DNA of 28,009 nt from a virus, in IMG/VR virus record IMGVR_UViG_3300032116_001055, positions 1 to 28,009 of that record; one strand, 5' to 3'. The notes under the pieces were generated by a model. It was not told the DNA's origin. It ran no database searches and saw nothing but the letters and a program-made list of their open reading frames with translations. A program made the position numbers and the translations under genes. Of the stretch, positions 2,972-26,475 are shown piece by piece. Position 1 is the first letter of the stretch. Every line of letters starts with the position of its first letter.

Positions 2972-2985
2972 CGCAACTTGTTGCG
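2972..2985 (-). repeat. 14-bp palindrome CGCAACNNGTTGCG, copy 1
   Basis: Coding strand CGCAACAAGTTGCG, exactly 2 nt after the TGA of the sulfotransferase gene and about 37 nt upstream of the P2 -35 box. It has 6-bp arms with a 2-nt centre. It is one of eight exact copies in the window. Confidence 0.9.
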
Positions 2986-2987
2986 GA

Positions 2988-3614
2988 TCATGTCCAGTGA
3001 ACCATTTCGGGCTTGCAGAGTTCAGCCCATTTCTGCGACCCTTTGAGCCGATCCCACTTGAGTTCGCCGAACTGCGACAGGGCATCGTGAACCTGGGCAT
3101 AGTCGCTCAGAATCTCAGGAAAGTAGACGAACCGAAACGGCACGCGATTGTCGGCCAGCGATTGTACGGCACTCAACAGATCGCCATTGAGCCGGGCAAT
3201 CTGCTCCCCCTCGGTCGCGGTTCGCCAGTAGTCGATCGACGAAAAGAACGCCTCGCGGCTCGACCTGACGGCGGCTCGAACTTCGCGGTGCGAGATCACC
3301 ACCCGCAGGTCTTTGCGGAGCGTCGCCCAGACGCGCATCACGCCGGGGTGCCTGACGAACCTCGGGTCTTTGACTACGCGCGGCTTGAACGCCATGATCT
3401 TCGCCGCTAGATCGCCCTCCAGGGCCTCGGCCAGCCGCCGCTGCCTGCCAAGCTCATTGATCCGGTCATTGATCTCGACACACTCCCGGCTCTCCCAGCC
3501 CGCGTTAATCGACTTATCCCAGCCGCCGCCGATCCCCTTGTCGTAGCCGAGTTCGCGGCAAAGCTGAGCCAGTAGCGACGTACCGCAGCGGCCCGTTCCG
3601 GTAATAATTAGCAT
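2988..3614 (-). CDS. P-loop sulfotransferase-like protein
   Basis: A 208-residue protein starting MLIITGTGRCGTSLLAQL. GTGRCGTS (6-13) is the 5'-phosphosulfate-binding loop of PAPS-dependent sulfotransferases. KPRVVKDPRF (77-86) and VVISHREVRAAVRSS (105-119) fit the conserved KDPR segment and the 3'-phosphate-binding arginine/serine region of the Sulfotransfer_3-like family. The frame is open further upstream, but that part lies antiparallel in codon phase to the glycosyltransferase gene, so I start at the ATG at 3614, 8 nt after the previous stop. It probably moves sulfate from PAPS to a sugar or protein hydroxyl. Its position right after a tandem glycosyltransferase suggests a sugar acceptor. 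Sulfotransferases are uncommon in phage structural operons. Confidence 0.75.
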   Translation of the reverse strand: MLIITGTGRCGTSLLAQLCRELGYDKGIGGGWDKSINAGWESRECVEINDRINELGRQRRLAEALEGDLAAKIMAFKPRVVKDPRFVRHPGVMRVWATLRKDLRVVISHREVRAAVRSSREAFFSSIDYWRTATEGEQIARLNGDLLSAVQSLADNRVPFRFVYFPEILSDYAQVHDALSQFGELKWDRLKGSQKWAELCKPEMVHWT

Positions 3615-3622
3615 GGCCCGCC

Positions 3623-5275
3623 TCAGTTGTGGGTGAACAGCGTGTTCTGGACGTGGACGAGATTCTCTTCGCCGTAGCGTTCGATGATCCGCTCGATGTA
3701 GGTCCAGTCGGCGTCCTTGGCCTTGTCGAGCCAGCCCGCCTCGATCGCCACCTCGCGCTGCACCATCACGCAGCCGCAGTCGATATTGCCGTGGTGCAGA
3801 ACCGACCGCAGCGGCTTCCATTGCCAGTAATTGTGGGTCATGTCGCAATAGCCGCCGACCGCGCCTGGCTGCTTCTCGATCGCGTTGACCATGATGTCGC
3901 AGAAGCCCGGCGCGTAATAGTTGTCGCCGTTCGTAATCACCACATAGTCGCCAAGCTCCATCTTGCTGACGATATTGAGCCCAAGCTGCCGCAGCGTGTG
4001 ACCCCAGTCGTTGTACCGCTTGCGGGTCGTGTACTGGAGAATCCTGGGCTCGCAAACCCGTCGCAGCTTGGCGACGACCGGCTCCGGCTTGACCAGCGGC
4101 CCGTCGTGATAAAGCACCAGCTTCCAGTCCCTGTGCCTTTGATCGAGCAACGACTCAATCAAGACCGGGTAATACTCGTAGAACGGCGCAATGAACGTCA
4201 CGGTTCGCCCGCGCTCGCCCGGCGACTCCAAGGCCGTAATCGGCACCGGCGTCGGCTCGTCGTGGACCGCCGCAGGCTCGCTCGGCAGATCAAGTTCGTC
4301 TTCTGCGAACTTCTTTCGCTGCCTGCCTTGAGCGATCGCCGCCAAAGCCTCGATCGTTTCGCTGGTGATGCCCTGGCCTCGCTCGACGGCCAGCATCGCC
4401 ACCCGCTCGACAATATCAGGAAGCTCGTCGAACCGCTCGGACGGCTTGCCGTATAGTGCCGCCGCCGTGAAGCTCCGCAGGTGGATTCGCCGTTCGTCCT
4501 CTTCGATCTCGCCGGTCGTTTCTTCGCCGACGATGATCGCATTGAGGCTCGCGTCTTTGAGCATTTCGTTGATAAGCACTTCCGTGTCGGCCCGCTGCGT
4601 CTCTTCGCCGGACTCCCACAGGTGTCGATAGTTGTTGACCAAGCGGCGAATCGTCCAGCCCGCTTTGATCCGGTCGATCTGCGGCATGTGCCAGAGCGAA
4701 AGCGTATGCGACAGCATCCCCTGCCACCAATCGCAGCCTGATCGCGGTATGCTCTGATAGCCGATCGCCGCCGCCATTTCGCGGTCGCAGCGTTCGATCC
4801 ATTCCTCGACGAGATTCTGCTGCGTGACGAGGCAGTCCGAATGAACCGTGAGCATCCACTCGGTCTGCACGCAAGCCTGCCCGGCCTCCATCGCGATCGA
4901 CACCAACTCGGACGAGTGTCGCCCGCCGTGGCAGTTGATCTGATGGACCTCAAGGTCATCGGCTCGCAGCGCCAGCACGTCGTCGAGCATCGAATCTTGC
5001 GTGCCCGTGTCGACCACCACGATATAGACCGGCTCGGTCTGACTGCGGAGCATCGCCACGCAGAGCTTGAGCAGGTCCGGCGTGTTGCAATGCGGCACGA
5101 CCGCCGTCACGCGATACTGCCAGGGCTTCTTCTCGATCGCCCCCTCCCAGGGTGCCTGCGTGGCCGTCGCCCGCCACGTCGCCGGACAGACAAGCTCGTC
5201 GCGGGTGAATTTGCTGTTCGGTTGCCGTGTCTGCGATAGGCGGCGATTGATCGCCTGGGAGATTTTGCGGCTCAT
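3623..5275 (-). CDS. Tandem glycosyltransferase family 2 protein (two GT-A domains)
   Basis: A 550-residue protein with two GT2-like domains. Domain 1 (about 55-215) begins YRVTAVVPHCNTPDLLKLC and carries WMLTVHSDCLV, where HSD stands at the DXD position. A linker of about 140 residues rich in charged residues and prolines follows. Domain 2 (about 355-550) begins TVTFIAPFYEYYPVLIESLL and has VVITNGDNYYAPGF, with NGD at the DXD position, followed by a WTYIERI segment. Two transferases in one chain usually add alternating or successive sugars. The start codon overlaps the stop of the tail tip gene as ATGA, so it is translated together with a virion protein. Modification of tail or capsid proteins, or of the host surface, is inferred. 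Confidence 0.85.
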   Translation of the reverse strand: MSRKISQAINRRLSQTRQPNSKFTRDELVCPATWRATATQAPWEGAIEKKPWQYRVTAVVPHCNTPDLLKLCVAMLRSQTEPVYIVVVDTGTQDSMLDDVLALRADDLEVHQINCHGGRHSSELVSIAMEAGQACVQTEWMLTVHSDCLVTQQNLVEEWIERCDREMAAAIGYQSIPRSGCDWWQGMLSHTLSLWHMPQIDRIKAGWTIRRLVNNYRHLWESGEETQRADTEVLINEMLKDASLNAIIVGEETTGEIEEDERRIHLRSFTAAALYGKPSERFDELPDIVERVAMLAVERGQGITSETIEALAAIAQGRQRKKFAEDELDLPSEPAAVHDEPTPVPITALESPGERGRTVTFIAPFYEYYPVLIESLLDQRHRDWKLVLYHDGPLVKPEPVVAKLRRVCEPRILQYTTRKRYNDWGHTLRQLGLNIVSKMELGDYVVITNGDNYYAPGFCDIMVNAIEKQPGAVGGYCDMTHNYWQWKPLRSVLHHGNIDCGCVMVQREVAIEAGWLDKAKDADWTYIERIIERYGEENLVHVQNTLFTHN

Positions 5276-8129: not shown

Positions 8130-8143
8130 CGCAACAAGTTGCG
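8130..8143 (-). repeat. 14-bp palindrome, copy 2
   Basis: Coding strand CGCAACTTGTTGCG, exactly 2 nt after the TAG of the tape measure gene and 8 nt before the tail tip ATG. Its last G joins the following GAG to form the ribosome-binding site GGAG of the next gene. Confidence 0.9.
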
Positions 8144-8145: not shown

Positions 8146-11100
8146 CTAGCCTCCCTGTTTGGCGAACGTCGAATCGCTGCGGCTAAAGAACCGATTGCGG
8201 GTATTGCTTCGCGCGGTGCCGCGACGATCCAGAGCGCCTTCGAGTTGCTTGGCGAACTCGGCATGATCCGTGACGCCGTTGAAGTTTTGTACCACAGTGG
8301 TCGAACCGGAATCGTGAACCGACATCGCCCCGTACTGACCGGCCTGCGACCCGCGATTGCCGCCGATCGGAGCCGCCGCTGGCTTGTTCTTGGCAGCCCG
8401 CGCGCGATCCTCGGCCTTGCTGCGAGCGTCGGCTTCCTCCCACCAGAGCTTGTTCTTTTGTCGCTGGAGTAAGTCGAGTTCCTCTTGGACATTGACCTCG
8501 GCGCGACGGCTTTCCATGCTGCCCGTGACGGCTGTGTTGTGCATCATCATGCCAGCCTTGGCTTGCAGATTGCCGATCATCATGTCGAGCCGCTGCATCG
8601 GGCTCGCCTCTTCGAGGGCTTGATTAAAGCTCGCCATTCCAGCCCCAATGCCCTGCACCGCCCCGTTGAAGAGGTTCGTTAGACCAAAGCTCATCTGCAT
8701 GATCTGCGTCATGGCGCTGCCGACCTGATCGGTGTAGATCGGTGCCCCATTGCCGGTGCCGCCAGCCGACAGACTGATGCCGTTGCCTTGATTGGTCAAC
8801 TTGCGACCACCAGCATAAGTGACGCTGCCGTTGACCATCGAAGCGCCAGAGCCTCCCGCCCCTACCGATTGACTGGCTGCCTGCTTTTCGATCGCCGCCG
8901 ATTTTGCATTGGAGACTTCCTGCTCACGGCCCTTCTTGTCGGCCTGAACTCGGCGATCGCTTTCGGCGATTTCCTTGTCTGCCGTCGCCTTTGCGGTATT
9001 CACCTTGGCATCGCCAGCCGTTTTGGCTTGCTCGGTTTCGGCCTTGTAGGTGCCTGCAATCTTGTCGCTGATCTTCTGGTACGTTGCCGCATACTTGCTT
9101 TCAAGCTCTCCGAGCGAGGCGACCATTTCGCCGCGAGCCTCGCCGCTGGCCTGCTTGGCAGCCTGCATGGTTTGAATAATCTGCTGCCGCAAGCGATCCA
9201 TTTCGGCAAGGTCTTTGCCTTCGACGCTGCTCGTGCCGCCGCCAGCTTCCTCACGACCCTTGCGTCGGCGCAGGGCGTCGATCGTGCCCATGCTCATGCG
9301 ATTAAAGTTGCCGACGTTCTCTTGGATTTGGTTTCGGCTCATCGAAGACCAGTCGCCGTCCAGGTACTTGCCGTGATCCCCCGGCAGCCCAGGCAGCCCG
9401 CGCTTCGCCTCGGCAATCGGCTCATTGACTCGCTCGGCAGGGATTGACGCAGCGCCGCCAGCTTGAGCTTCTGGTGCAGCCTTGTTTTTGGCGGCAGCCT
9501 TCGCTTCTTTGGCTTTATCTTCTCGCTCCTCCCGCTCAAACCGTTCGCGCGAGCGTCGCATTTCGGCAGCGCCTTCCCGGTCGGCCTTTCGCTTTTCGTT
9601 GTCGGCGACAATACTCTCGGCCATCTTGTCCTGCTCTCGCAGAGCAGCCTGACCTTTGGCTCGCTCCTGAGTCGCTCGCTTGTTGCTGAGATTCGCGCCA
9701 GCTTCGTCGCCGATCGCTCGCTTGGCCTCGGCCATTGCGTCGTGGAACGTCGCCAGTGCGTCGTGATAGATTTTCTTGAGCCCAAGCCCGATCGTTTCGA
9801 GCCTGCGAAAGTCGCCGTTGAGCGCATCGAGCCCAGTCTCAATCACGAACATCAGGCTCTCGAAAGCACTCTTGATAACGCCGATTGCCCACTCGCCCGC
9901 GCTGCCAAACTTACCCCAGGCATCCGACTGCGAAACCAGATTGACGATGTTCGTAATCACGACACCGATATTGATCGCCAACTCGCCGAGCTTCTCGACG
10001 ATCCTCTGCAAGCTGTCGGCGTTCTCAGAAGCCCACTTGCTCAGGCCAGCGCCGACATTTCCAAACAGGTCCATGAAGGCGCTCTTGGCTTTCGTGGCCC
10101 ACTGAACCACGTTGTCCCAGACGAACTTGCCGCGAGCGGCATACTCGTCCGACGACTGCATGGCCTGACGAATCGCCAAGGCAATCGCACCGATTGCAAC
10201 CGTGTAAGGATTGACGATCGTCAACACCGTGCCGATCGACCCACCAACGGCGGTCGTCGCGGTCGCAAACATACTGGCTGCGGTCGACAGCATCGAGAAC
10301 GGATTGACCAGATTGCCGATGATCGTAAGCAGCCCGCCTATAATCGGCGTCATCGGCCCGATTGCCCGCAGAGCCAGGCTCACAGCACTCATCGCGGCAC
10401 CTAGCGACAGTAAGCCCTGCACGCTCGGCGGCAGCTTGTCAAATAGCGCAAAGAGCCCGCTGACGCCGCTCACTAATGGCCCAGAAAATTTGTCGACCAG
10501 CATCCCGATAACGCGAACGGCTTCGGTGCCACCACGAACGAGACGGTCAACCGCAGAGTCAATCCCCTGACCAAGCCATTGCTGGTTTTTATCAATCCAA
10601 GCCGTCATGGCATCGACGCCGGATCGCAGGGCAGGAGTGAGCCCTTGGCCGAATCGCAGCCGCAGTCCTTCTGTGGCATTATCCAGCTTCGTGAAGCTGC
10701 CGATCAGATTGTCGAGCATTGTCTTGGCGATTCGACTCGCCGTTCCATCGGCAGCTTTGAGAGCTTCCTCCATCTTGCCGATGGCCTCGCCTCCGGTCGA
10801 AGACAGCGCAGCCAGGGCGGTCGCCGAGCGAACGTCCATCGCCGCCGAAGCCTTGGTAATCATCTGCTCGCTGCTCATGCCCTGACGCTTCATTGAGGCG
10901 TCAATGTCTTTGATGATATCCAACAGGTCGCGCATCGCGCCACTCGGCTTGCGCGTCTCGACCCCCATATCGTCGAAGAATTTCTTCGTGGTCTTGTCGA
11001 GCCTCGCCACGTCGGTCATCAGCGACCGCAGTCCAGTGCCAGCCGTACTGCCGTCGAGCCCCTTGTTCTGCATGGCCTGCATCAGAGCGATCAGCCGCTC

Positions 11101-12108
11101 CATCGACATGCCGCTCATCGTCGCAATCGGCCCGACGTATTTCAGGCCCTCGCCGATGCCAAGAATGTCGGTTTTGGCGGTCGTCGCGGCCTTTGCCAAA
11201 ACGTCCATCAAGTGACCCATTTTGTCGGCTGGAACTTCCAGTCCGTACAAAGCCTGGGCGGTAATCTTGGCTGAATCGCTCACACTCACATTGCCAGCGG
11301 CGGCAAGGTCAAGCACGGCTGGCATTGCCTTCATGATGTCCGACGCCTTGACGCCAGCACGGGCAAGCTCCTCCATGCCTCCAGCCGCATCCCTGGCGGT
11401 GTAGACCGTCTCCGCACCGAGCTTTTGAGCCAGGGCCTCCATGTCCTTCATGACCCGCTCAAGCTCTTGCGTGTCCGTCACGCGACCAGAGACGAGAGCT
11501 TTGACTCGCGACATGCCTTGCTCGAACGTCGCCGCCAATCGGGTTGAGTCAGCAGCGCCGACAGCCGCCGCCGTCGAAGCGACCGTGCTCACCCCGCGAA
11601 TCGTCTCCGTGGCTCGCTGCATCCCGGCTTGCAGACTTGCACCAAGTCCGCGTGCGGCATTAGACAGCCTCGTGATCGCGGCTTCGGCTTGCTGCGAAGA
11701 TTGAACGACAAGTCGCGTTTGTTGCACCATCGGCTGAGCGAATTGAGTATTCGCCCGCATTTGCGCAAGCTCACGATTTAGCCCTTGCGACTGCGTGGTC
11801 ATCGCGCGGGTGTAGTTCGCCGCCTGTGCGAGCGGCCCGCCGAGCCCGCCGATATCCGAGCCCACCGCGCGAATCGAGCCACGGCTCCGATCCATGACCT
11901 GAACCATGCGGTCGATGCCAGCCGCCGATTGCGTGATCCTGTTGGTGGCAGAGCTTAGCCGACCGGCAGCGGTATCAATCGACGAAAAGACGCCATCGAC
12001 CGACTTGCGAAAGTTTCCAAGCGACCGCTGAGCGTCAGCCAGCCCCTTGTCCCATTTCTTCGCGTCGATCGACAAAATGCCTTTGAGGACATCAAAGTCA
12101 ATGCTCAT
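8146..12108 (-). CDS. Tail tape measure protein (TP901 type)
   Basis: At 1320 residues this is the longest gene, as expected for a tape measure protein that sets tail length. Residues about 185-500 match the TP901 core: FEQGMSRVKALV, LGAETVYTARDAAGGMEELA, AQALYGLEVPADKMGHLMDVL, TMSGMSMERLIALMQAM and LRSLMTDVARLD. A hydrophobic stretch at about 565-665 (repeated Gly/Ala/Ile/Leu helices) is the membrane-insertion region usual for this family. Residues about 820-1100 are charged, Ala/Lys/Glu-rich coiled coil. GGAGGGG lies upstream of the start. Its length suggests a tail of roughly 200 nm by the usual 1.5 angstrom per residue rule. Confidence 0.93.
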   Translation of the reverse strand: MSIDFDVLKGILSIDAKKWDKGLADAQRSLGNFRKSVDGVFSSIDTAAGRLSSATNRITQSAAGIDRMVQVMDRSRGSIRAVGSDIGGLGGPLAQAANYTRAMTTQSQGLNRELAQMRANTQFAQPMVQQTRLVVQSSQQAEAAITRLSNAARGLGASLQAGMQRATETIRGVSTVASTAAAVGAADSTRLAATFEQGMSRVKALVSGRVTDTQELERVMKDMEALAQKLGAETVYTARDAAGGMEELARAGVKASDIMKAMPAVLDLAAAGNVSVSDSAKITAQALYGLEVPADKMGHLMDVLAKAATTAKTDILGIGEGLKYVGPIATMSGMSMERLIALMQAMQNKGLDGSTAGTGLRSLMTDVARLDKTTKKFFDDMGVETRKPSGAMRDLLDIIKDIDASMKRQGMSSEQMITKASAAMDVRSATALAALSSTGGEAIGKMEEALKAADGTASRIAKTMLDNLIGSFTKLDNATEGLRLRFGQGLTPALRSGVDAMTAWIDKNQQWLGQGIDSAVDRLVRGGTEAVRVIGMLVDKFSGPLVSGVSGLFALFDKLPPSVQGLLSLGAAMSAVSLALRAIGPMTPIIGGLLTIIGNLVNPFSMLSTAASMFATATTAVGGSIGTVLTIVNPYTVAIGAIALAIRQAMQSSDEYAARGKFVWDNVVQWATKAKSAFMDLFGNVGAGLSKWASENADSLQRIVEKLGELAINIGVVITNIVNLVSQSDAWGKFGSAGEWAIGVIKSAFESLMFVIETGLDALNGDFRRLETIGLGLKKIYHDALATFHDAMAEAKRAIGDEAGANLSNKRATQERAKGQAALREQDKMAESIVADNEKRKADREGAAEMRRSRERFEREEREDKAKEAKAAAKNKAAPEAQAGGAASIPAERVNEPIAEAKRGLPGLPGDHGKYLDGDWSSMSRNQIQENVGNFNRMSMGTIDALRRRKGREEAGGGTSSVEGKDLAEMDRLRQQIIQTMQAAKQASGEARGEMVASLGELESKYAATYQKISDKIAGTYKAETEQAKTAGDAKVNTAKATADKEIAESDRRVQADKKGREQEVSNAKSAAIEKQAASQSVGAGGSGASMVNGSVTYAGGRKLTNQGNGISLSAGGTGNGAPIYTDQVGSAMTQIMQMSFGLTNLFNGAVQGIGAGMASFNQALEEASPMQRLDMMIGNLQAKAGMMMHNTAVTGSMESRRAEVNVQEELDLLQRQKNKLWWEEADARSKAEDRARAAKNKPAAAPIGGNRGSQAGQYGAMSVHDSGSTTVVQNFNGVTDHAEFAKQLEGALDRRGTARSNTRNRFFSRSDSTFAKQGG

Positions 12109-12126: not shown

Positions 12127-12140
12127 CGCAACAAGTTGCG
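12127..12140 (-). repeat. 14-bp palindrome, copy 3
   Basis: Coding strand CGCAACTTGTTGCG, exactly 2 nt after the TAG of the 134-aa gene, in the 34-bp gap before the tape measure start. Confidence 0.9.
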
Positions 12141-13652: not shown

Positions 13653-14174
13653 TTAGCTCGTCGCCACGCCGATCTTGCCGATCAACTGGCCGTCGCTCTT
13701 GCTCTCGTCGATCAGCATCTTGAAGGTCGCTTCAAAGACGCGATCGTTGCCGACCGAGCCGAACTGAACTTCACCCACGTCCGACACGACCGCCTTGTAG
13801 AACGTCACGTCGTCGACCGTGCCCGAGCCGTCGAGCGGGTGCAGCACCAGCGCACCGGCCAGCGAACTGCCCTTAGTGCCCGGCAGCTTGCCGATACCCC
13901 AGCAGCTTGAACTGATCGAGCTACCGAACTGGTAGACCGTCTGCACAACCTGCATCGTCTTCTCGGCGAACTTCGCCTTGCAGTCGACCTGATCGCCTTG
14001 GTAGATCAAGTCGGCCAGATGCTCGCCGTACTCGTCCACCTTGCGCTCGCGAAGCTGCGGCTTGACGCCGAACGTCACGCCACCCATCGTGTGACCGCAG
14101 GCGACCGATTTGTACGTCACCTTGCACGGCCCGGTTTCAATTTTACTGAGATCACCACCAACTTGGCTTGCCAT
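13653..14174 (-). CDS. Major tail (tube-like) protein, copy B
   Basis: A 173-residue protein placed just before the tail assembly chaperone, where the tail tube gene normally lies. It is beta-rich, with GPCKVTYKSVACGHTMGGV near the N-terminus (17-35), then KPQLRERKVDEYGEH, ALVLHPLDGSGTVDDVTFYK and SDVGEVQFGSV. These features fit the tube-protein fold by context, but the family assignment is inference. It is about two-thirds identical by eye to the protein encoded at 16188-16775. A GGGGC-type site and ATCATG precede the start. The gene is followed by a strong hairpin, as expected for a highly expressed structural gene. Confidence 0.7.
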   Translation of the reverse strand: MASQVGGDLSKIETGPCKVTYKSVACGHTMGGVTFGVKPQLRERKVDEYGEHLADLIYQGDQVDCKAKFAEKTMQVVQTVYQFGSSISSSCWGIGKLPGTKGSSLAGALVLHPLDGSGTVDDVTFYKAVVSDVGEVQFGSVGNDRVFEATFKMLIDESKSDGQLIGKIGVATS

Positions 14175-15800: not shown

Positions 15801-15814
15801 CGCAACAAGTTGCG
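15801..15814 (-). repeat. 14-bp palindrome, copy 4
   Basis: Coding strand CGCAACTTGTTGCG, exactly 2 nt after the TAG of the 123-aa gene, in the 28-bp gap before the gp10-like start. Confidence 0.9.
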
Positions 15815-15816: not shown

Positions 15817-16188
15817 CTAAGTTGCCGACCTGCGAAGAAACGCCACCTTGAGTTTGCGGGCATTGGCCGGATCGCGCGTCGAGATCACCAGCCAGCTTGT
15901 CGATGATCCAGTCTCGTCGGTGATCGTCAGCCGATCGCCCAGTCCGTCCGACTGCGAAGCTCCCGGCCTGATATCGGTCCCAGCCGGAAAATAAGCCATC
16001 GCGTCGAACTCGATATCCGTGCCGTATTCCTTGGTCGACTTGCGCGCGTCGCGCGGATGCAAGGCGCAGGCCACCGCCGACATGCCATTCACAGCCGCCA
16101 GCGTCGCCTTGCGAACACCCGTTGCCGACTGCGAGACGGTCGGACGAGAAACAGCCGCCGTGAAGTTCATCCTGCGGAGAGCGGGCAT
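15817..16188 (-). CDS. Probable head completion / head-tail joining protein (123 aa)
   Basis: A 123-residue, beta-rich protein. YGTDIEFDAMAYFPAGTDIRPG in the middle, then GDRLTITDETG and a C-terminal strand series (SWLVISTRDPA, KLKVAFLRR), resemble small stopper or joining proteins that have a short beta barrel. It is TAATG-coupled to the tail tube-like copy A upstream and lies next to the gp10-like gene. Position and fold type favour a neck role. No single signature residue makes this certain. Confidence 0.5.
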   Translation of the reverse strand: MPALRRMNFTAAVSRPTVSQSATGVRKATLAAVNGMSAVACALHPRDARKSTKEYGTDIEFDAMAYFPAGTDIRPGASQSDGLGDRLTITDETGSSTSWLVISTRDPANARKLKVAFLRRSAT

Positions 16189-16775
16189 TAGACACCCACC
16201 TTGCCGAGCAACTGCCCGTCAGCCTTGGTTGCATCCGTCACGCACTTGAACGTGCAGTCGAAAACCCGATCGGCAGTCACGCTGCCGAACTGAACTTCGC
16301 CAATGTCACTGACCGTGGCCTTGAAGAATGTCACGTCGTCGCGCGTGCCATCGCCGTCGAGCGGATGCAGCACAAGCTCGCCGCCAACCGTGCCGCCCTT
16401 GGCCCCAGGTCCGTAGCCAACGTGCAGCGTCTCGGTCACGCGGTTGCCGAACTGGTAGACCGCTTGCACGACCGCCATTGTCTTCTCGGCGAATCGGCAC
16501 TTGACCTCGGCCATGTCGCCGACATAGATCAAGTCGACGCCGTGCTCGCCGTACTCGTCGACCTTGCGGTCCCGCAATTGCGGCTTGATCGACATACTGA
16601 CGCCGCCCATCGTGTGACCGCAGGCCACGGAGCGATACGTCACCTTGCACGGCCCAGACTCGATTCGAGACAAGTCGCCGCCGACTTGCGACAGTGAGCT
16701 AGGCGTAGAGACTCCCACGAGGTCGGCAACGAATGTCCGCCTGCTGCGAATCACCGGAATCATCGCTGCCAGCAT
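16188..16775 (-). CDS. Tail tube-like protein, copy A (paralogue)
   Basis: A 195-residue protein whose residues 29-195 align without large gaps with the major tail protein at 13653-14174. Shared stretches include GPCKVTY, SVACGHTMGGV, RKVDEYGEH, LVLHPLDG and GEVQFGSV. The two differ mainly in a 12-residue loop (NRVTETLHVGYG here) and in an extra 28-residue basic N-terminal extension (VIRSRRTFVADLV). It lies on the head side of the neck genes, about 2 kb upstream of the other copy. It could be a second tube subunit, a neck ring or a decoration on the connector. The duplication itself is seen directly; the role is inference. Confidence 0.7.
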   Translation of the reverse strand: MLAAMIPVIRSRRTFVADLVGVSTPSSLSQVGGDLSRIESGPCKVTYRSVACGHTMGGVSMSIKPQLRDRKVDEYGEHGVDLIYVGDMAEVKCRFAEKTMAVVQAVYQFGNRVTETLHVGYGPGAKGGTVGGELVLHPLDGDGTRDDVTFFKATVSDIGEVQFGSVTADRVFDCTFKCVTDATKADGQLLGKVGV

Positions 16776-17844: not shown

Positions 17845-18894
17845 TTAGCCTGCCCTCATGCGTTGATATGCTGCCTGGATTGCCGGAATTGAAACAGCCG
17901 TAGCATCGTCGTCTGTAATCGTAATCGTAACCTGTTGCGTGCCGTTTTCGGCTGGCGTTTGGCCGTAAGTGCTCGTGATGCTCGTGATTTCGACAATGAT
18001 CGTTAGATCGCCTTCACTCAAGGCGTTGTCGAGGGCCGTGATTTCGATCGAGCCTGACGTGATGCCAACTCCCCCATTAGCCCACATGCCCGGCATCACA
18101 ATCGAGGTTGTGCTGACCGAATAGTGCTCGTCCTGAACCGCCGTACCGCCAAACCCCAGGTTGACGGTTGTTTCGCCCCAGTCTGCATTGTCCTGGATGG
18201 CCGTCACGACGCTCACGCCGCCATTTTCAGCAATGGTCAACGGGCTGCCAGATAGAGATACAGTCGCGGGAGCGCCATGCTGGAGCACGGTCACTGTAAT
18301 CGAAATGAGCGTGCCGACGCTCTCGCTATAGATCGAAAATGTGTCTTGGGGGGATAGTTCTCTGATGCCGATATACTCAACATCAAACACGCCTGCCGAT
18401 GGACTTGTAACACTGACGATCGTCGAGGCCGCAAGTGTATTGATCGCAGACGCGATCGCGGCCGCGCCTCCGCTCACGGCAATTGCTGCCGTATTCATGC
18501 CTCCAACCGCAGGCATTATGAGAATAAACTCTCCCGTGTCGCCTGAGATCGTGATTCTATGAATCGCGTTTTGAGATTCAGAGCCGGTCTGAATCGACTC
18601 CACGCCAATCGAGCCATCAATGGCTAGCGTGCTGTTGGCTGCCGTAAACGGCAATATATTGGTGTTCGATAGATCGTGAACAAACTCAACGGTGAAGCCG
18701 TCCGTAAAGTTTCCAGATACCACAGATCGCCCGCCACCAATTCCAGGACAGCTATTGATCGAAGTTGCCAGGGCGGCGGCGTCGCCGTTGTACTGGTGAT
18801 AGTCCGTAGCTGGCGAACCGCCGCTGTCGTAGGCGGGCCTCCAGCTACCAGAAATAGGCACGCCGCTAAACGTGAATTTGATGATTTCATTCAT
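17845..18894 (-). CDS. Virion surface-type protein with Calx-beta domain (349 aa)
   Basis: Residues about 208-335 show the Calx-beta pattern: PLTIAENGG, then VNLGFGGTAVQDEHYSVS, SIEITALDNALSEGDLTIIV and VTITITDDD. The acidic loops usually bind calcium and mediate adhesion. The first 200 residues contain two related beta units (about 4-92 and 112-195), each with a strand, an 'AIASAIN' type helix and a 'V.V......F.VE' strand pair. The gene sits between the connector and the fibre-like gene. It is likely displayed on the head or neck. Acquisition from a bacterial adhesin is possible. Confidence 0.7.
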   Translation of the reverse strand: MNEIIKFTFSGVPISGSWRPAYDSGGSPATDYHQYNGDAAALATSINSCPGIGGGRSVVSGNFTDGFTVEFVHDLSNTNILPFTAANSTLAIDGSIGVESIQTGSESQNAIHRITISGDTGEFILIMPAVGGMNTAAIAVSGGAAAIASAINTLAASTIVSVTSPSAGVFDVEYIGIRELSPQDTFSIYSESVGTLISITVTVLQHGAPATVSLSGSPLTIAENGGVSVVTAIQDNADWGETTVNLGFGGTAVQDEHYSVSTTSIVMPGMWANGGVGITSGSIEITALDNALSEGDLTIIVEITSITSTYGQTPAENGTQQVTITITDDDATAVSIPAIQAAYQRMRAG

Positions 18895-20033: not shown

Positions 20034-20341
20034 AGAGCTTCAACGAGTTCGACGAACAGCCGAATCGTGTCCGGCGTCGTCTGGGTGTGGAAGGTCAGCG
20101 TGCGGCTCGTCCCCTGAGCCTGCTCGGGATAAGCCCGCAGGCTCTTGCCGAGCGACTTCGCCATTTCCTCTAGCTTGTGATTCGGGTACTTCAAAATCGC
20201 GAGCGTGATTTTCTCGGCCTGAGAAAGCTCAGCGGCCTCCGCAACTTGTTGCGTGCCCGAATCGACCTCACCGGAGAGCACTCTGCCCCTTGTGCTCTCA
20301 CGGCGGGCCGGTGTTTTGGTCTTTTCCTGATCTTCGCTCAC
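20024..20341 (-). CDS. Small hypothetical protein (105 aa, GTG start)
   Basis: The GTG start at 20341 overlaps the TGA of the GT4 gene as GTGA, and the 3' end overlaps the connector start by 10 nt. Both support this reading rather than a longer ATG-started frame. The N-terminal 35 residues are charged and disordered-looking (VSEDQEKTKTPARRESTRGR). One copy of the 14-bp palindrome lies here in frame and encodes T-Q-Q-V-A at residues 30-34. The rest (about 38-105) has a helix SQAEKITLAILKYPNHKLEEM, an alternating strand LTFHTQTT and a final helix TIRLFVELVEAL. Function unknown. Confidence 0.6.
   Translation of the reverse strand: MSEDQEKTKTPARRESTRGRVLSGEVDSGTQQVAEAAELSQAEKITLAILKYPNHKLEEMAKSLGKSLRAYPEQAQGTSRTLTFHTQTTPDTIRLFVELVEALCR
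20240..20253 (-). repeat. 14-bp palindrome, copy 5 (intragenic)
   Basis: Coding strand CGCAACAAGTTGCG inside the 105-aa gene, in a low-complexity linker. It starts at codon position 2, unlike the copies after stop codons, and is followed by GAG as in copies 2 and 7. Confidence 0.9.
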
Positions 20342-21366
20342 GATATCGACTCCACGACCTCGATCAGTTTCCTGCCGCATTTTTCCCAGGTGAAGTGCTC
20401 GCGAATCCGCCGCGCCGCCTTGCGGCCCCTGGCTAGCGCTTGCTGCCAATCGCTCATCACCTTGCCCATCTGCAAAGCGAGATCGTAGGTATCTGGCGTC
20501 GCAAGCTGAGCCTGGAGTTGATAGCTCCGCTCAAGCGCTTCATCGACGCCGGTCCAACTCCAGTCTTCCCACTTGAGGTCGTACTTGATTGGATATCCTA
20601 CAAGTTCATCTGGCGGGGCGAGGTCCAGCATTGCGGTCGCTGGCGTGTAGACGCATGGCAGGCCAGTTGCCATCGCTTCGCCGAGTGTGAGCCCAAAGCC
20701 TTCGCCGACGCTCGGAAACGCAAAGGCGTGCGAATGGGCGTAGATACCGGCCAACTCCGTGGCAGGCACTCGTCGCGAGTCGAAAATGATGTTCCCGATC
20801 CGCTTAATGCCCGGTGGCTGGTCGTGCTCGCCCTGCGGGAATGTGGTCTTGAGGTACAGTTCACAGTTGGGAGAATCGGCAAACGCCCGCCATGCCTCAA
20901 GCACATGCAGCGGACCCTTGCGGGCGTTCGGAGCCCCTAGCCACAGGAACCTGAATGGCCTGTGCTTCGGCCCGCCGTAGATCGGCCTCCGCTTGGCGTC
21001 ATTGCGATCGACATACCGGAACAGGTCGCTGTCGACCCCGAGCGGCACATGATAGATCGGCTTGCCCGGCAGCAGCTTGCGGAACGGTTCGACCAGAAAG
21101 CTCGCGGTTAGGCAAACGGCGTCGGCCCGTTCGAGTATCCGAAAGCACTCAGGAAGCTGCGAAGCCTCCCAGGCCGCGTATGCGATATTTTTCTTTCCGG
21201 GCACAGGCTCAAACATGTGCGGCGGCGTGACGTGAAAAGCCACGTCAGATGAAGCGTCCATCACAACCCCTAGTCGCTCGCACGCCTCTTTTGCTTTCGA
21301 GTTGTGTATCGAGTACCCGTAGGAATTGCCCACGCCAAAATAATCAGTGACCCAGTGAAGCTTCAC
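20338..21366 (-). CDS. Glycosyltransferase, GT4 family (GT-B fold)
   Basis: A 342-residue protein from a GTG start at 21366 that overlaps the HNH stop as GTGA. An upstream in-frame ATG lies inside the HNH gene and is rejected. It has KLHWVTDYFGVGNSYGYSIH at the N-terminus, a mid-protein strand RFLWLGAPNARKGPLHVLEA that starts the nucleotide-sugar domain, and PSVGEGFGLTLGEAMATGLP at about 217-236. That last stretch is the E-x7-E signature of GT4 retaining transferases. It likely adds a sugar from an NDP- or GDP-sugar. It sits in a four-gene, start-stop-overlapping run with a GT2, a membrane protein and an HNH nuclease. Confidence 0.9.
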   Translation of the reverse strand: MKLHWVTDYFGVGNSYGYSIHNSKAKEACERLGVVMDASSDVAFHVTPPHMFEPVPGKKNIAYAAWEASQLPECFRILERADAVCLTASFLVEPFRKLLPGKPIYHVPLGVDSDLFRYVDRNDAKRRPIYGGPKHRPFRFLWLGAPNARKGPLHVLEAWRAFADSPNCELYLKTTFPQGEHDQPPGIKRIGNIIFDSRRVPATELAGIYAHSHAFAFPSVGEGFGLTLGEAMATGLPCVYTPATAMLDLAPPDELVGYPIKYDLKWEDWSWTGVDEALERSYQLQAQLATPDTYDLALQMGKVMSDWQQALARGRKAARRIREHFTWEKCGRKLIEVVESIS

Positions 21367-21893
21367 GCTATAACCCTCCACGCCTTTCCGACCTTGATTC
21401 GCGACGCAATGCTCTTTGAGACACCAAGCCACCTGGATATGAAGTCAACGGACCCGTAGCCGCTATGCCTCAAGAAAAAACGCTTAATCAGTGCAGCCAC
21501 TTCGTTGCTTATCGTTGCCTTGTGGTGCCGCTCGGCTCTCGGTATCGTTCCGTGCTTGACTCGATCGCGGTTGTTCTCGGCAATGGTGCCCCAGGCAAGA
21601 TTCTCAAGCCTGTTGTCTTTCTGATTGCCATTCAAATGCCTGCACACCATGCCGACTGGCCTCGGGCCGACAAATGAACAGAGCACGAGCCGGTGAACGT
21701 AGGCGTGTTTTTCGACGTACCGGCCATCTTGACGGCCACACAAAGTCACCTGCGGGTATCCACGGCAATCTGGAGAGCATGAAATCTCTCTGTCGCCATG
21801 AAAAACACGGCCTTCTTTTGTCACGAAGTAGCTAGAAAATCCAGCTATCTCGACGGCATCGCCTGCCTTGACTTGATCTTCTAGCAGCTTCAT
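21363..21893 (-). CDS. HNH homing-type endonuclease (NUMOD4/HNH_3-like)
   Basis: A 176-residue protein. Residues 15-33 (EIAGFSSYFVTKEGRVFHG) match the NUMOD4 start 'pipgyeg.Y.vS..G.v.s'. Residues 66-102 hold the HNH_3 core: VHRLVLCSFVG, CRHLNGN, KDNRLENLAWGT, with His67 and His86 and the Asn residues near 88-98 in the expected places. Residues about 125-175 (KATISNEVAALIKRFF, then WLGVSKSIASRIKVGKAW) form a helix-turn-helix DNA-binding tail. Such enzymes cut DNA and spread by recombination. It is ATGA/GTGA-coupled to both neighbours, so it does not look freshly inserted. Confidence 0.88.
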   Translation of the reverse strand: MKLLEDQVKAGDAVEIAGFSSYFVTKEGRVFHGDREISCSPDCRGYPQVTLCGRQDGRYVEKHAYVHRLVLCSFVGPRPVGMVCRHLNGNQKDNRLENLAWGTIAENNRDRVKHGTIPRAERHHKATISNEVAALIKRFFLRHSGYGSVDFISRWLGVSKSIASRIKVGKAWRVIA

Positions 21894-22294
21894 TTTGTGA
21901 TATCCGTTCGCCCTTCGATGACTTCGACCCGCAGCGGCAAGATCGCCGTCCGATTGCGGTCCATCCAGTAGCCTTTGACCATAGCAATTCTCGAAACTCG
22001 AACCCCTTCGCGGACCTCGCGGCTCGACAGATCATGCAGCGTGAGGTACTTGCAGGTCATTTCGTAGACGCCGCCGCGCGGCTCGAAGAACCAGCCCGAT
22101 ATGCGGTGCCGTTCGTTCTCGCCCCAGGGCGTGTAGTGGTCGATCTCAACCGCGATCTCGCACGGCTCCTTGGTGATCGTCGCCGAGTCAGCGCCATCGA
22201 CCATTCCGGTCAGCAGCATCGCGATGAAGACCGCGACTCCCCAGAGCAAAATCTCAACGACCGAACTCCAGATTGCCTTGGCTAGATCGCTCAT
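21890..22294 (-). CDS. Membrane-anchored protein, one N-terminal helix (134 aa)
   Basis: The start is the ATG at 22294 that overlaps the GT2 stop as ATGA; the longer upstream frame is shadow sequence. Residues about 9-31 (WSSVVEILLWGVAVFIAMLL) form one membrane helix. A beta-rich, charged domain follows (VEIDHYTPWGENERHRISGW, VRVSRIAMVKGYWMDRN, AILPLRVEVIEGR). It probably faces one side of the inner membrane. Lying between two glycosyltransferases, it might anchor or assist glycan transfer at the membrane, but no family is recognised. Confidence 0.7.
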   Translation of the reverse strand: MSDLAKAIWSSVVEILLWGVAVFIAMLLTGMVDGADSATITKEPCEIAVEIDHYTPWGENERHRISGWFFEPRGGVYEMTCKYLTLHDLSSREVREGVRVSRIAMVKGYWMDRNRTAILPLRVEVIEGRTDITK

Positions 22295-23094
22295 GGCCCC
22301 ATGAACCTCCGGCCAAGATTCTCGGTAGCCCGCAGCTTCTCGGCCATCGCCTCTTGCTTGCCGCCGTGGTCGCCCGTGATCGTGCCTGCCGCCTTGACGG
22401 TCGAGCAAAGCACCTTGGGAATCCGCACGAAGCCTTCGCCGCCGTAGAGCTTTTCGATCCGCATGAACAGACCGTAGTCGCCGCCTGGGAACTCATTCGC
22501 CCCGACCTCGTTCTCTGGCCCGTGCCAGCGATAGCCGCCGACTGCCGAGTAAGCGATCGCCGGGAAGCATCGCACACCCTCGCCGGGGCACATCGCCGCC
22601 TTGAGCATCCACGGCTGATAGTCGGGCTTCTGATAGTGGCCTATGATCTCGCCGTCGCCATCCAGGTGGATACAGTCTCCATAGACAAACCCAGCCCCAT
22701 CGACGATCGCCTGCCGCACCAGATCGAGCGTGTCGTGGGTCAGAAAGTCGTGGTCGTCAAGTTCGATGATCCAGCCGCCCGGTCGAGCCATCGAACAGCC
22801 CGCGTGCCGCGCCATGTTGACGGTCGACACCCGATTCCGCATGTAGTCGAGATTGATCTCCAAAATCGCGTCGGCGTGAACGAATTTGGCCGGGTCGCTT
22901 TCGTTCCGGTCGTCGTCAGAATCCCGCACGATGATCCAGCGATCATGCGGCCCAAGCTGATCGGCCAGCAATTCGGCTTGATGCTCCAGATCGCGCGGTC
23001 GGTTTCGGGTCGGCGTCACGATGTCGAGAAAGACATCGGCGACCGATTCGGGCTTGACGTAGCCGAGCGTGGTGAGGATTTGCGGCGGCTTCAT
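22291..23094 (-). CDS. Glycosyltransferase family 2 (GT-A fold)
   Basis: A 267-residue protein. LDIVTPTRNRPRDLEHQ (23-39) is the N-terminal strand and loop of GT2 enzymes. VRDSDDD (56-62) is the first acidic motif. GGWIIELDDHDFLTHDTLD (107-125) contains the DXD-like LDDHD that binds metal and nucleotide sugar. The C-terminal half has an acidic W/H-rich loop and a GGDYGLFMRIEKLYGGEGF segment typical of the acceptor side. The start lies 3 nt after the previous stop. It begins the coupled GT2-membrane-HNH-GT4 run. Confidence 0.88.
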   Translation of the reverse strand: MKPPQILTTLGYVKPESVADVFLDIVTPTRNRPRDLEHQAELLADQLGPHDRWIIVRDSDDDRNESDPAKFVHADAILEINLDYMRNRVSTVNMARHAGCSMARPGGWIIELDDHDFLTHDTLDLVRQAIVDGAGFVYGDCIHLDGDGEIIGHYQKPDYQPWMLKAAMCPGEGVRCFPAIAYSAVGGYRWHGPENEVGANEFPGGDYGLFMRIEKLYGGEGFVRIPKVLCSTVKAAGTITGDHGGKQEAMAEKLRATENLGRRFMGP

Positions 23095-23373: not shown

Positions 23374-23733
23374 CTACGCCGGATTCTCGCAACTTGTTGC
23401 GGACGACTTGCCATCCAGGTAGAAGCCGACGCGGCTAGCCATCGCCTCGCTGGCGTCGTCGAACGGCTCGATGCCAAGATACGTCTTGAGCTTGCGATTT
23501 TCGTCGAGCACTTGCTTGCTTGATCGCAGTTCACGCTCAAGCTCGTCGATCCGCTTCGTCAGCTTCAAGACTGAATCGCGAGCCTCGTCACGCTCCTTGA
23601 AAGCGTCTTGAAGTCGAATCTCCAGCGATTCGATTCTAATTTTGGCGTATCCGCTGACACACGATGACTCTGGCATTGGTCGACCTTCGGCGGCGACTTC
23701 GATCACGCCGCCGAGCGTGGTTCGGTCAGACAT
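23374..23733 (-). CDS. Coiled-coil protein (119 aa) with palindrome at its 3' end
   Basis: A 119-residue protein. It begins MSDRTTLGGVIEVAAEG, close to the start of the gene upstream (MSVQIGGVVEVSA). Residues about 32-85 are heptad-rich (RIESLEIRLQDAFKERDEA, KLTKRIDELERELRSSK). Near the end the 14-bp palindrome is read in frame as part of SATSCE. The codon 2 nt before the palindrome is TCG, where other genes have a stop codon, suggesting the last 9 residues are a read-through extension. The start overlaps the upstream gene by 8 nt. Function unknown. Confidence 0.7.
   Translation of the reverse strand: MSDRTTLGGVIEVAAEGRPMPESSCVSGYAKIRIESLEIRLQDAFKERDEARDSVLKLTKRIDELERELRSSKQVLDENRKLKTYLGIEPFDDASEAMASRVGFYLDGKSSATSCENPA
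23388..23401 (-). repeat. 14-bp palindrome, copy 6 (in 3' end of a gene)
   Basis: Coding strand CGCAACAAGTTGCG. The in-frame triplet ending 2 nt upstream is TCG, one substitution from TAG, at the position where five other copies have a true stop. Confidence 0.9.
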
Positions 23734-24840: not shown

Positions 24841-24854
24841 CGCAACTTGTTGCG
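24841..24854 (-). repeat. 14-bp palindrome, copy 7 (in a 5' leader)
   Basis: Coding strand CGCAACAAGTTGCG, beginning about 5 nt after the start site expected from P3. It is followed by GAG, forming the ribosome-binding site GGAG. This placement would suit an operator or an RNA hairpin acting on the leader. Confidence 0.9.
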
Positions 24855-24865
24855 TTGATCTATCT

Positions 24866-24894
24866 AGTATATCGTCCCGCTAGACGATTGTCAA
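24866..24894 (-). promoter_or_regulatory. Sigma70-type promoter P3
   Basis: On the minus strand, -35 TTGACA (24894-24889), a 17-nt spacer containing CGTCTAGCGGGACGA, and -10 TATACT (24871-24866). It is followed by AGATAGATCAA and palindrome copy 7. It would drive the DUF6283-like gene and the coiled-coil genes behind it. Confidence 0.85.
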
Positions 24895-24901
24895 TAACAA
24901 A

Positions 24902-25204
24902 TTACCGCCTTTCCAGCCGTCGCTTGATCGCCGTCACGGCCTGCTCCAGAAATTGCATACGCTCGCTTGGCTCAAACGCCCCGTCGCCCGTCGCTTCCTC
25001 GGAGTAAAAAATCGTCTCGACGCCGCAGCACGGATGGTCGACTCGGAACTCCCCATGCCGCAGCCGCAGGTAGCCGACCTGCACGCCATCGGGACCAAGG
25101 GCGTCGTACTGCTCGGGACAGGCCGGGCAGGTCATCGCCAGCTTGATGCCGTCGATCGTGATCTCTTCCGGCCCGAAGTTGTCGGGGTCGAATGGGTCGC
25201 TCAT
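24902..25204 (-). CDS. Small Cys-rich protein (100 aa)
   Basis: It starts at the ATG at 25204, ATGA-coupled to the upstream gene. The long upstream frame reads as a shadow and is rejected. The pattern MTCPACPEQYD (24-34) and DHPCCGVE (56-63) provides a CxxC plus a HxCC pair, fitting a zinc-ribbon-like fold. The C-terminus is a helix FLEQAVTAIKRRLERR. It may bind metal and possibly nucleic acid; no family is recognised. Confidence 0.7.
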   Translation of the reverse strand: MSDPFDPDNFGPEEITIDGIKLAMTCPACPEQYDALGPDGVQVGYLRLRHGEFRVDHPCCGVETIFYSEEATGDGAFEPSERMQFLEQAVTAIKRRLERR

Positions 25205-25434
25205 GGGTTTTGCTCCTGATATTGTCGCTTGGCGATGTCGAGCGCCGTCTCCATCTGCAACTGCGACGGAGCCAGATCGGCACAGTAGAATCCCGGCACG
25301 CCGAACAGATCGCGCGGCTCGTGGATCGCCATGATCTCCGGTCGTTCGGGAATCATGGCGAAGATACGATCTGTCAGATCGGCGGTCACTGACCGATGCG
25401 GATACTTGGCGGCTGATTTTGGTGGCGTCGGCAT
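25201..25434 (-). CDS. Small hypothetical protein (77 aa)
   Basis: A 77-residue protein with a basic N-terminus (MPTPPKSAAKYPHRSV), a middle IMAIHEPRDLFGVPGFYCADL and a helical C-terminus. A GAGG site lies within the end of the upstream gene, and the start is 2 nt after its stop. It is coupled to the downstream gene by ATGA. No motif is recognised. Confidence 0.7.
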   Translation of the reverse strand: MPTPPKSAAKYPHRSVTADLTDRIFAMIPERPEIMAIHEPRDLFGVPGFYCADLAPSQLQMETALDIAKRQYQEQNP

Positions 25435-25436
25435 GG

Positions 25437-25694
25437 CTAGAGTCCTCGGATCGTGGTGGAAACAAATTTCACGCCGCTTTGCCCTCGGTCGACCTTGCCC
25501 GTTCTCGTGTCCCTGACGCCGACGACTCGGCTGAACTTCTGCTTGATCTCGTCGACCGTGTAGCGGCGGAAGCCGCCTCGCTCAAAGACGCCGGTTGTCA
25601 TGCGGATATCTTCGATCATTTTGTCGTCCATCGGCTCGTAGATGAACTCGCGAAACTCGGGCGGAATCCAGCCTGCTGGCTCATCGAAGTTCAT
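25437..25694 (-). CDS. Small hypothetical protein (85 aa)
   Basis: The start is the ATG at 25694, preceded by AGGAGATC. A more upstream ATG is rejected because it lacks a ribosome-binding site. The protein begins MNFDEPAGWIPPEFREFI, contains MIEDIRMTTGVFERGGFRRY and ends VKFVSTTIRGL. It has no membrane helix or cysteine. No family is recognised. Confidence 0.7.
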   Translation of the reverse strand: MNFDEPAGWIPPEFREFIYEPMDDKMIEDIRMTTGVFERGGFRRYTVDEIKQKFSRVVGVRDTRTGKVDRGQSGVKFVSTTIRGL

Positions 25695-25705
25695 GGCTTG
25701 ATCTC

Positions 25706-26020
25706 CTAGAGGCTGCAATACAGCCCGGTTTCACGCTCGAACAACTCGACCAATTGGTCACAATAAATGTCGCTGTGCTCGCTGATCGGCGTCAGCTTCA
25801 AGGCTCGATACTTGGCGAACTGCACCGTGTAGGTGTCGCACGGGTCCAGCGTGATCTTGACGCGGTTGCTGCCGTTCTTCGCCATGCCGGATCGCAGGCA
25901 GAAGCTCAGGCTGTTCTCGTCGCCGATGAAGTTCTTGGCTCCGGTCATGGCAATGAACTTGCCGCCGCCGAGTTGGGCCAGAATCGTCTTGGCTACCGTC
26001 ATGTCAGTCGTCGCACTCAT
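25706..26020 (-). CDS. Conserved small phage protein type (104 aa)
   Basis: The start is the ATG at 26020 with the repeated CA-rich leader upstream; an earlier ATG at 26056 is rejected. The pattern TILAQLGGGKFIAMTGAKNF, then LSFCLRSG, VKITLDPCDTYTVQFAKY and a final amphipathic segment DQLVELFERETGLYCSL is a layout I associate with small proteins found in many unrelated phages. Their function is not known to me. It lies in the right-hand small-gene island. Confidence 0.8.
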   Translation of the reverse strand: MSATTDMTVAKTILAQLGGGKFIAMTGAKNFIGDENSLSFCLRSGMAKNGSNRVKITLDPCDTYTVQFAKYRALKLTPISEHSDIYCDQLVELFERETGLYCSL

Positions 26021-26047
26021 GGTCTTGATCTCGCGTTGGTGGTTGCT
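26018..26047 (-). promoter_or_regulatory. CA-rich translation leader, copy 3
   Basis: The coding strand reads AGCAACCACCAACGCGAG, then ATCAAGACCATG. It closely matches the leaders at 2016, 2257 and 26363, with one CAC unit fewer in the CA tract. Confidence 0.6.
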
Positions 26048-26053
26048 GAAAAG

Positions 26054-26133
26054 CAAGCGGCCCGGCGACCAGGGCTGTGACCGCGATCGAGTCGCATGTC
26101 GCGCCGGGTGAGAACAGGGACAACTTCCGCTTG
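26054..26133 (-). other. Possible structured RNA or terminator in a 117-bp intergenic gap
   Basis: On the coding strand CAAGCGG (26133-26127) can pair with CCGCTTG (26060-26054), CCCGGCG with CGCCGGG inside it, and GCGA with TCGC inside that. CTTTTC follows the outer stem. GC-rich DNA makes some pairing likely by chance, so this is tentative. Without further support it could simply be a terminator for the preceding single-gene unit. Confidence 0.35.
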
Positions 26134-26137
26134 TGGC

Positions 26138-26365
26138 TTAGGCGTCAATCAACTCGATCACGCCGCACTCTGGTTCGTTGCTGTGGCTAATCAGGGTACG
26201 CTCGACATCGTTGACCATAATCGGCTCGTCGAGCTTGACATGGATCGAGTCACAGCCGCCGCCCCAGCTATAGAGGCAGATCGTGACTTCGCCGCTGAAC
26301 GGCACGCCAAAGTAGGTGCCCTGAACGCGATCGCCGGTTTCGAGCAGTCGGGTGGTGGTTGACAT
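26138..26365 (-). CDS. Small beta-rich phage protein (75 aa)
   Basis: A 75-residue protein with LETGDRVQGTYFGVPFSGEV, then CDSIHVKLDEPIMVNDVERT and a closing strand. The segment 'GDRVxGTYxGVPFxGxV' recurs in small single-domain phage proteins of unknown role and looks like a small beta barrel. Position 1 is fixed by the CA-rich leader with GAGATCAAGATCATG. It is the first gene behind promoter P4. Confidence 0.75.
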   Translation of the reverse strand: MSTTTRLLETGDRVQGTYFGVPFSGEVTICLYSWGGGCDSIHVKLDEPIMVNDVERTLISHSNEPECGVIELIDA

Positions 26366-26400
26366 GATCTTGATCTCGCTTGCGGTTGGTGGTGGTTGCT
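26363..26400 (-). promoter_or_regulatory. CA-rich translation leader, copy 4
   Basis: The coding strand reads AGCAACCACCACCAAC, then CGCAAGCGAGATCAAG and ATCATG. Together with the preceding AGAGACAAAG it links promoter P4 to the gene start. Confidence 0.6.
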
Positions 26401-26412
26401 TTGTCTCTATCT

Positions 26413-26441
26413 AGTATATCGCCGTGCTAGACCCAAGTCAA
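26413..26441 (-). promoter_or_regulatory. Sigma70-type promoter P4
   Basis: On the minus strand, -35 TTGACT (26441-26436), a 17-nt spacer TGGGTCTAGCACGGCGA and -10 TATACT (26418-26413). A T-rich stretch with ATTTTCAG precedes it. It drives the 75-aa gene and possibly the genes behind it. Confidence 0.87.
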
Positions 26442-26461
26442 CAGTGAAACTGAAAATTATT

Positions 26462-26475
26462 CGCAACTTGTTGCG
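26462..26475 (-). repeat. 14-bp palindrome, copy 8
   Basis: Coding strand CGCAACAAGTTGCG, exactly 2 nt after the TAA of the 62-aa gene and 20 nt upstream of the P4 -35 box. It is followed by AATAATTTTC, a weak T-rich tail. Confidence 0.9.

Follow-up and report, generated by a model that had tools for sequence, protein, structure and literature searches.

Evenly spaced, identical palindromes around an 83-kb phage genome: a possible stoperator-like array

Palindromes in the window and in the whole phage

The viral DNA analysed here, positions 1 to 28,009 of the IMG/VR record IMGVR_UViG_3300032116_001055 (hereafter the window, meaning the whole stretch of 28,009 nucleotides), comes from a phage whose genes in this part lie on the minus strand almost throughout, and it carries eight exact copies of the 14-bp palindrome CGCAACWWGTTGCG (core word also written CGCAACNNGTTGCG). 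An earlier note, made from the letters alone, had listed these eight copies and had pointed out that five of them begin exactly 2 nt past a stop codon. Both statements hold. An exact search returned all eight at the listed positions, against none in 100 shuffled controls, and the 2-nt offset is found at five of the eight (2972, 8130, 12127, 15801 and 26462). The remaining copies lie in a reading frame (20240), in frame near a 3' end (23388) and between a promoter-like site and a start codon (24841). When two mismatches were allowed, the sole addition was an off-centre variant at 17926, which is probably no working site.

2972..2985, minus strand: palindrome copy 1, centre AA; 2 nt after TGA (2988-2990), context TGA-TC; upstream of the early promoter-like site at 2907-2935
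8130..8143, minus strand: palindrome copy 2, centre TT; 2 nt after the TAG of the tape-measure gene, context TAG-CA; leads into the ribosome site (GGAG) of the gene that follows
12127..12140, minus strand: palindrome copy 3, centre TT; 2 nt after TAG, context TAG-TC
15801..15814, minus strand: palindrome copy 4, centre TT; 2 nt after TAG, context TAG-CC; next start 12 nt on
17926..17939, minus strand: off-centre variant with one mismatch; inside a gene
20240..20253, minus strand: palindrome copy 5, centre AA; in a reading frame, 84 nt past the preceding stop
23388..23401, minus strand: palindrome copy 6, centre AA; lies in a gene whose 3' end is 14 nt away
24841..24854, minus strand: palindrome copy 7, centre AA; follows an early promoter-like -10 box at a distance of 11 nt; runs into GGAG before a start codon
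26462..26475, minus strand: palindrome copy 8, centre AA; 2 nt after TAA, context TAA-CC; 20 nt upstream of an early promoter-like site

A search with the capsid protein of the window led to the 83,617-bp record IMGVR 3300032050_000072 (hereafter G001), to which the window is 90-100% identical over the aligned stretches. Because the ends of G001 overlap by 258 bp and the window runs across them, the genome should be an 83,359-bp circle or a permuted molecule. The phage encodes a major capsid protein, a tape measure, a terminase, an ERF-type protein, SSB, two DNA methylases, an integrase on the other strand (Pfam, 2.8e-12) and, as gene 92, a 72-aa Cro/CI-type helix-turn-helix (HTH) protein (Pfam, 1.9e-9; the HTH was found again in a second search). 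Given this gene content, including the integrase and gene 92, the phage is probably temperate. Genes in G001 were called with our own script and not with a standard program, and the start chosen for one helicase probably leaves it too short; this gave 126 proteins, part of which were covered by the family scans.

The array extends around the whole genome. G001 contains 26 exact copies, three with one mismatch and one with two, at a mean density of one palindrome per 3.2 kb around 83.4 kb; the shuffles and the copy number together rule out an origin by chance. Gaps between copies range from 608 to 6,943 bp (coefficient of variation 0.534), and the spacing is more even than that of random places (P 0.0003) or of random gene ends (P 0.00015).

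The copies also keep to the boundaries of genes. Sixteen of the 26 are wholly intergenic, whereas 8.4% of positions are (P 1.5e-11), and 20 have a gene boundary at most 31 nt away, against 4.2 expected. Eight copies start exactly 2 nt after a stop, against 0.04 expected, and 11 lie 0-8 nt after one. Three copies, 8-10 nt before a start, lead directly into a GGAG ribosome site, and none of the 26 lies 3-7 nt before a start codon. The ten copies inside genes fall in all three reading frames, which rules out a peptide motif. A single palindrome is found in an 11-kb stretch that holds the integrase and gene 92.

At G001 51190-51245 (11190-11245 in fragment L147) a palindrome is followed by a tRNA-like end, with T-arm and acceptor pairing seen by eye and no call from ARAGORN. 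Another palindrome lies 7 nt behind a tRNA-Arg.

Architecture and conservation of the site

The two central letters are AA or TT in all 26 copies and never AT or TA; read on the coding strand, 18 centres are AA and eight TT. The assignment of TT centres to the tail region and of AA centres to all others, as put forward in the earlier note, is correct for the window (TT at 8130, 12127 and 15801) and fails in the whole phage, where TT also occurs outside that region. A similar division applies to the proposed extended element of TAG-Y-C plus the palindrome: the two flanking bases are conserved (mostly YC or CA), but the stop codon is no part of the core element, since none of the 18 sites without the offset has a stop at that position (by eye). 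The partly conserved outer bases extend the 14-bp core to about 18 bp, of the form YM-core-KR. Flank pairs on the coding strand are A..G in ten sites, C..T in eight, C..G in six and C..A in two. Viewed as half-sites, 18 of the 26 combine one A-type with one C-type half, an excess above chance (P 0.002), and none combines two A-type halves. By flank asymmetry eight sites are forward, ten reverse and eight undefined, and the outer flanks base-pair in six sites and are unpaired in 20. No other six-base-arm palindrome has a high copy number, the next best, with six, being the same site read one base further out.

This architecture bears on whether the word acts as an RNA hairpin or terminator with a CUUG or CAAG loop, serving processing, stability or the end of transcription. 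Placement behind stops would suit such a role, and a 5-bp stem with a tetraloop folds in 21 of the 26 coding-strand contexts (16 of 26 on the other strand). The fold is weak, however, at -3.3 kcal/mol, and a T-run lies within 12 nt in three of the 26 contexts, so that the stable stem and U-run of an intrinsic terminator are lacking and that function was rejected. A hairpin selected for stability would pair at its flanks and give compensated two-change copies, and neither pattern is common: the flanks are A/G or C/T in 18 of 26 sites, and copies with changed letters are nearly absent from G001, the two-change class expected from compensation being represented once. Furthermore, a strong terminator hairpin, distinct from the palindrome and recognised by eye, directly precedes the site at 22593, and the Rfam matches in the window and in L146-L148 are tRNAs only, none of them on the palindrome. 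The RNA reading, one of three offered in the earlier note, is weakened by these patterns, and we consider it very unlikely.

Outside the palindromes, the half-site CGCAAC is depleted in G001, with 11 occurrences against 34.5 expected on both strands. Part of this depletion may be ordinary word avoidance, because the phage strongly avoids many restriction-type words; the counts of those words are mostly near zero, unlike that of the half-site. Many six-base palindromes are avoided to an extreme degree in the window and in G001 (L145-L149); in G001, ATCGAT occurs 0 times of 106 expected, TGATCA 0 of 103 and CTCGAG 0 of 102. Asymmetric words such as GGTCTC, GAATGC and CTGAAG likewise occur 0 times each, and CGATCG, GTCGAC and GATATC are common. 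This avoidance of six-base words probably reflects heavy restriction pressure.

Comparison of strains revealed a core that is held while its surroundings change. In five site pairs (four in L063 and one in the window) whose flanks differ at 110 of 1,235 bases (9%), the outer 12 core letters are unchanged; this figure excludes rows with few or no differences (window, L189, L010) and four rows of paralogous sites (window with s24967 and s42164; L063 with s15546 and s42164). The centre of one site differs between two strains, AA against TT, with equal immediate flanks (L063 8517, G001 22593). One entire G001 gene is missing from L063; the gap lies exactly between the GGAG of a palindrome and the GGGAG of the following gene, and both strains have the palindrome. 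L010 is without several genes between two promoter copies, one palindrome having gone along with them, and in the alignable strain stretches no empty site was found.

Empty sites would be the mark of a small mobile palindrome of REP type that inserts behind stop codons, another of the earlier note's readings. In the passages of the cited paper drawn on here, GTAG-tagged REP elements are short, mostly extragenic palindromes with a TAG near the stem that often give neighbouring genes a TAG stop, and in GTAG-1 and GTAG-2 the tag and the stem are two bases apart (PMC3733652). The core of the phage palindrome is also found in bacterial genomes, where its close pairs resemble REP-type repeats (by eye); GTAGGAG-tagged inverted pairs occur in three proteobacterial genome records (L175, L176 and L177), and in the RUG10884 record the pairs are flanked by GGGAGGG (by eye). 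The genome scan sought only pairs of copies at most 30 bp apart and is thus biased to paired repeats; copy counts in the eight bacterial genomes range from 2 to 89. Unlike GTAG REPs, the phage copies are exact where REP sequences vary, and they have no tag: neither GTAG nor GGAG lies within 8 nt of any of the 26, and CGTC does so in three. They form no dimers, the smallest gap being the 608 bp given above, and are spread more evenly than random. The Y1 transposase (PF01797) is absent in all four phage records searched, with the control positive in five of 14 genomes. Sites are kept in the aligned strain stretches, the one missing from L010 having left with its genes. A mobile repeat is, on this evidence, extremely improbable.

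The core also occurs in other viruses, and these occurrences bear on whether the sites could serve a host DNA-binding protein and be kept by the phages of that host. A viral scan gave at least 118 loci with the core, 74 of which were sent for whole-record counts. Among the 74 recounted records, 69 have one copy, two have two (one being this phage), G004 has six, G005 eight and G001 26. The eight exact copies of G005 speak for a shared host factor, since this 58-kb phage (46% GC) is unrelated, with protein similarity to G001 in the terminase, a helicase and one borderline small protein only. However, three of its eight copies have the centre AT and its flanks are mostly other, and the 69 single-copy records point away from any broad use. 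We therefore hold a host protein to be distinctly unlikely. Sixteen stretches carrying relatives of the terminase (L155-L170, 4-21 kb, 28-48% identity) contained no copy of the core, and no six-base-arm palindrome occurred more than twice in any of them.

A possible stoperator-like operator array

Because the centres are AA or TT only, the mostly unpaired flanks are selected and the sites use both orientations and all frames, a protein on duplex DNA is favoured over an RNA hairpin, a terminator or a mobile repeat. A dimeric protein would explain the equivalence of AA and TT, the use of both orientations and the exactness of the copies. A phage operator or partition-type site, the remaining proposal of the earlier note, thus fares best of its three and is partly supported by the even spacing, the conservation among strains, the AA/TT equivalence and the selected, mostly unpaired flanks. 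Tentatively, we suggest that this may well be a genome-wide array of identical double-stranded DNA sites for a phage-encoded dimeric protein that acts in stoperator-like silencing. Protein binding, the identity of the binder and silencing are what we infer from these patterns; the binder is perhaps the 72-aa Cro/CI-type protein, with gene 92 as the candidate, or a ParB-like protein.

Under such a scheme, a dimeric DNA-binding protein encoded by the phage would occupy the sites in the prophage and, once bound, would halt transcription at the borders of genes, keeping stray transcripts from crossing the lytic genes, as with stoperators in L5-like phages. Sites would be retained where they are cheapest for the proteins, namely after stops, in gene tails and before ribosome sites. 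The sparseness of the 11-kb stretch would be expected if the integrase and gene 92 stay expressed, a point that is weak alone.

Several observations weigh against stoperator-like silencing. No palindrome lies within 1.2 kb of gene 92, the candidate for the binder, although repressors usually have an operator at the promoter of their own gene. Among the 15 promoter-like sites of G001 (described below), eight have no palindrome in the 75 nt before or the 70 nt after, and only two have one where it could block clearance, 11 nt past the -10 box. The CGCAAC half-site is not depleted in G005 (36 against 37.7 expected). L5 stoperators are asymmetric and oriented, and these palindromes are neither. 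Finally, about 100 nt of free space follows two of the eight stop-abutting sites (15546 and 75415), so that simple economy fails to explain the exact 2-nt offset, which is a sharp clue to how the site acts or arises.

The strongest rival is that the palindromes are loading sites of the ParB/KorB/Noc type: a ParB-like protein of the phage would load there, move along the DNA as a sliding clamp, and silence, compact or position the whole phage genome or prophage. Even spacing suits this account. Two G001 genes, 82 (6e-6) and 91 (2.5e-6), have matches to ParB-like PHROGs, a palindrome lies 2 nt after the stop of gene 82, and a 268-aa protein of G005 with a weak HTH match (0.0039) looks ParB-like by eye. 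In G001, gene 82 spans 54791-55744, gene 91 61436-62230 and the Cro/CI-type gene 92 62232-62450. Nevertheless, the evidence for a ParB is thin. Phages commonly carry ParB-like genes, gene 82 has its best match to a PHROG of unknown function, and Pfam ParB_N (PF02195) had no match at 0.001 in G001 or G005 (gene 49 reached 0.0017). Gene 82 found no ParB in the PDB, where the G005 protein scored at chance level only (Spo0J, E 0.68), and the fold predicted for gene 82 was too poor to search with (pLDDT 46). No ParA was recognised among the scanned part of the proteins, and the relatives of genes 82 and 91 in IMG/VR came from the same phage only. KorB sites are dispersed over RK2, and the Noc site differs in sequence from the palindrome described here. 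In the cited passages, KorB of RK2 has a palindromic operator for a ParB-family CTPase (PMC11790492), and Noc of Bacillus, also a ParB-family CTPase, has 16-bp sites (PMC4331003, PMC8429893) scattered round a chromosome (PMC4331003); the present array shares with them a palindromic site and a scattered placement. Unlike in those systems, the site sequence here is different and a ParB-family binder is only a weak candidate. On balance we regard such loading sites as unlikely.

Silencing by a stoperator-like array leads to the comparison with the L5-type stoperators of Cluster A mycobacteriophages, which, in the passages cited, occur more than 20 times around the genome of a temperate phage, both at promoters and in short gaps between genes (PMC9283540). 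The present array likewise has at least 20 spread sites, many of them in short gaps (26 sites, 16 intergenic), in a phage with an integrase. The L5 sites are 13 bp long, asymmetric and mostly in one orientation with transcription, as described in part of another source (PMC6550527). The array here, unlike theirs, consists of a 14-bp palindrome that is unoriented (eight forward, ten reverse and eight undefined), nearly invariant and strongly offset from stops, with a repressor that is only a candidate.

The start-associated sequences of Cluster K mycobacteriophages offer a second likeness, being 11-19 copies of a 13-bp word at phage gene borders, of unknown function; the passages cited describe them as non-palindromic, typically 3-7 bp before starts, in one orientation and in the right half of the genome (PMC3203893). 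The array here is, in contrast, genome-wide and mostly after stops or inside genes. Site symmetry and orientation place the array outside the L5 stoperator family, the lack of a tag and of a transposase in the phage records outside the REPs, and position outside the start-associated sequences; it would work most like stoperators. Literature on phage-wide palindromic repeats and on promoter/stem-loop cassettes gave, by title and abstract, no description of such an array, which does not show that none is in print.

It is tempting to speculate further that an evenly spaced, identical array at stops lets one small phage protein, of Cro/CI type or a ParB-like clamp, silence or organise a whole prophage. 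This would be a second, independently evolved answer to the task that stoperators perform, with a symmetric site that works in either direction and perhaps with clamp loading at fixed intervals; we hold this to be rather doubtful. Few phage groups are known to have repressor arrays that span the genome, and the need for dozens of sites is unsettled. A symmetric, near-invariant and even array, in a phage without a DNA match in the phage collection, could separate promoter repression from an elongation roadblock and from clamp-type spreading.

Promoter-like sites and further features

The promoter-like sites of G001 (n = 15) have the form TTGAC..GTCTA..CGATATACT, most with a CAACCACCACCAAA-type leader; in IMG/VR, a pattern built from them matched this phage's own records and no others. 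The following lie in the window.

24866..24894, minus strand: promoter-like site, TTGAC..TATACT (window coordinate = G001 coordinate + 10916)
26413..26441, minus strand: promoter-like site of the same sequence family
2907..2935, minus strand: promoter-like site of the same sequence family
26711-26739 (window): promoter-like site of the same sequence family

The palindrome as a part of the promoter was tried and dropped, since only seven of the 15 sites have one nearby. Whole-gene differences between strains fall between promoter-like copies, as if these were exchange points (window 2589-2907; L010 about 1650).

A phage collection gave no DNA match to window positions 1-25000. In searches for the host, the integrase matched no plasmid; nor did it match any of 288 genomes from the phylum to which one Kiritimatiellae genome belongs, the latter search being run without a positive control.

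Four glycosyltransferase matches lie among the structural genes of the window (570-1592, 3623-5275, 20338-21432 and 22291-23094), together with a weak sulfotransferase match (2988-4055). The tail-region genes at 13653-14174 and 16188-16775 share 73% DNA identity and look like a duplication, the first matching an Ig-domain PHROG. An HNH endonuclease gene lies at window 21363-21893, and the matching stretch of G001 (about 10450-10967) is absent from the strain fragment L010, as for a homing insertion.

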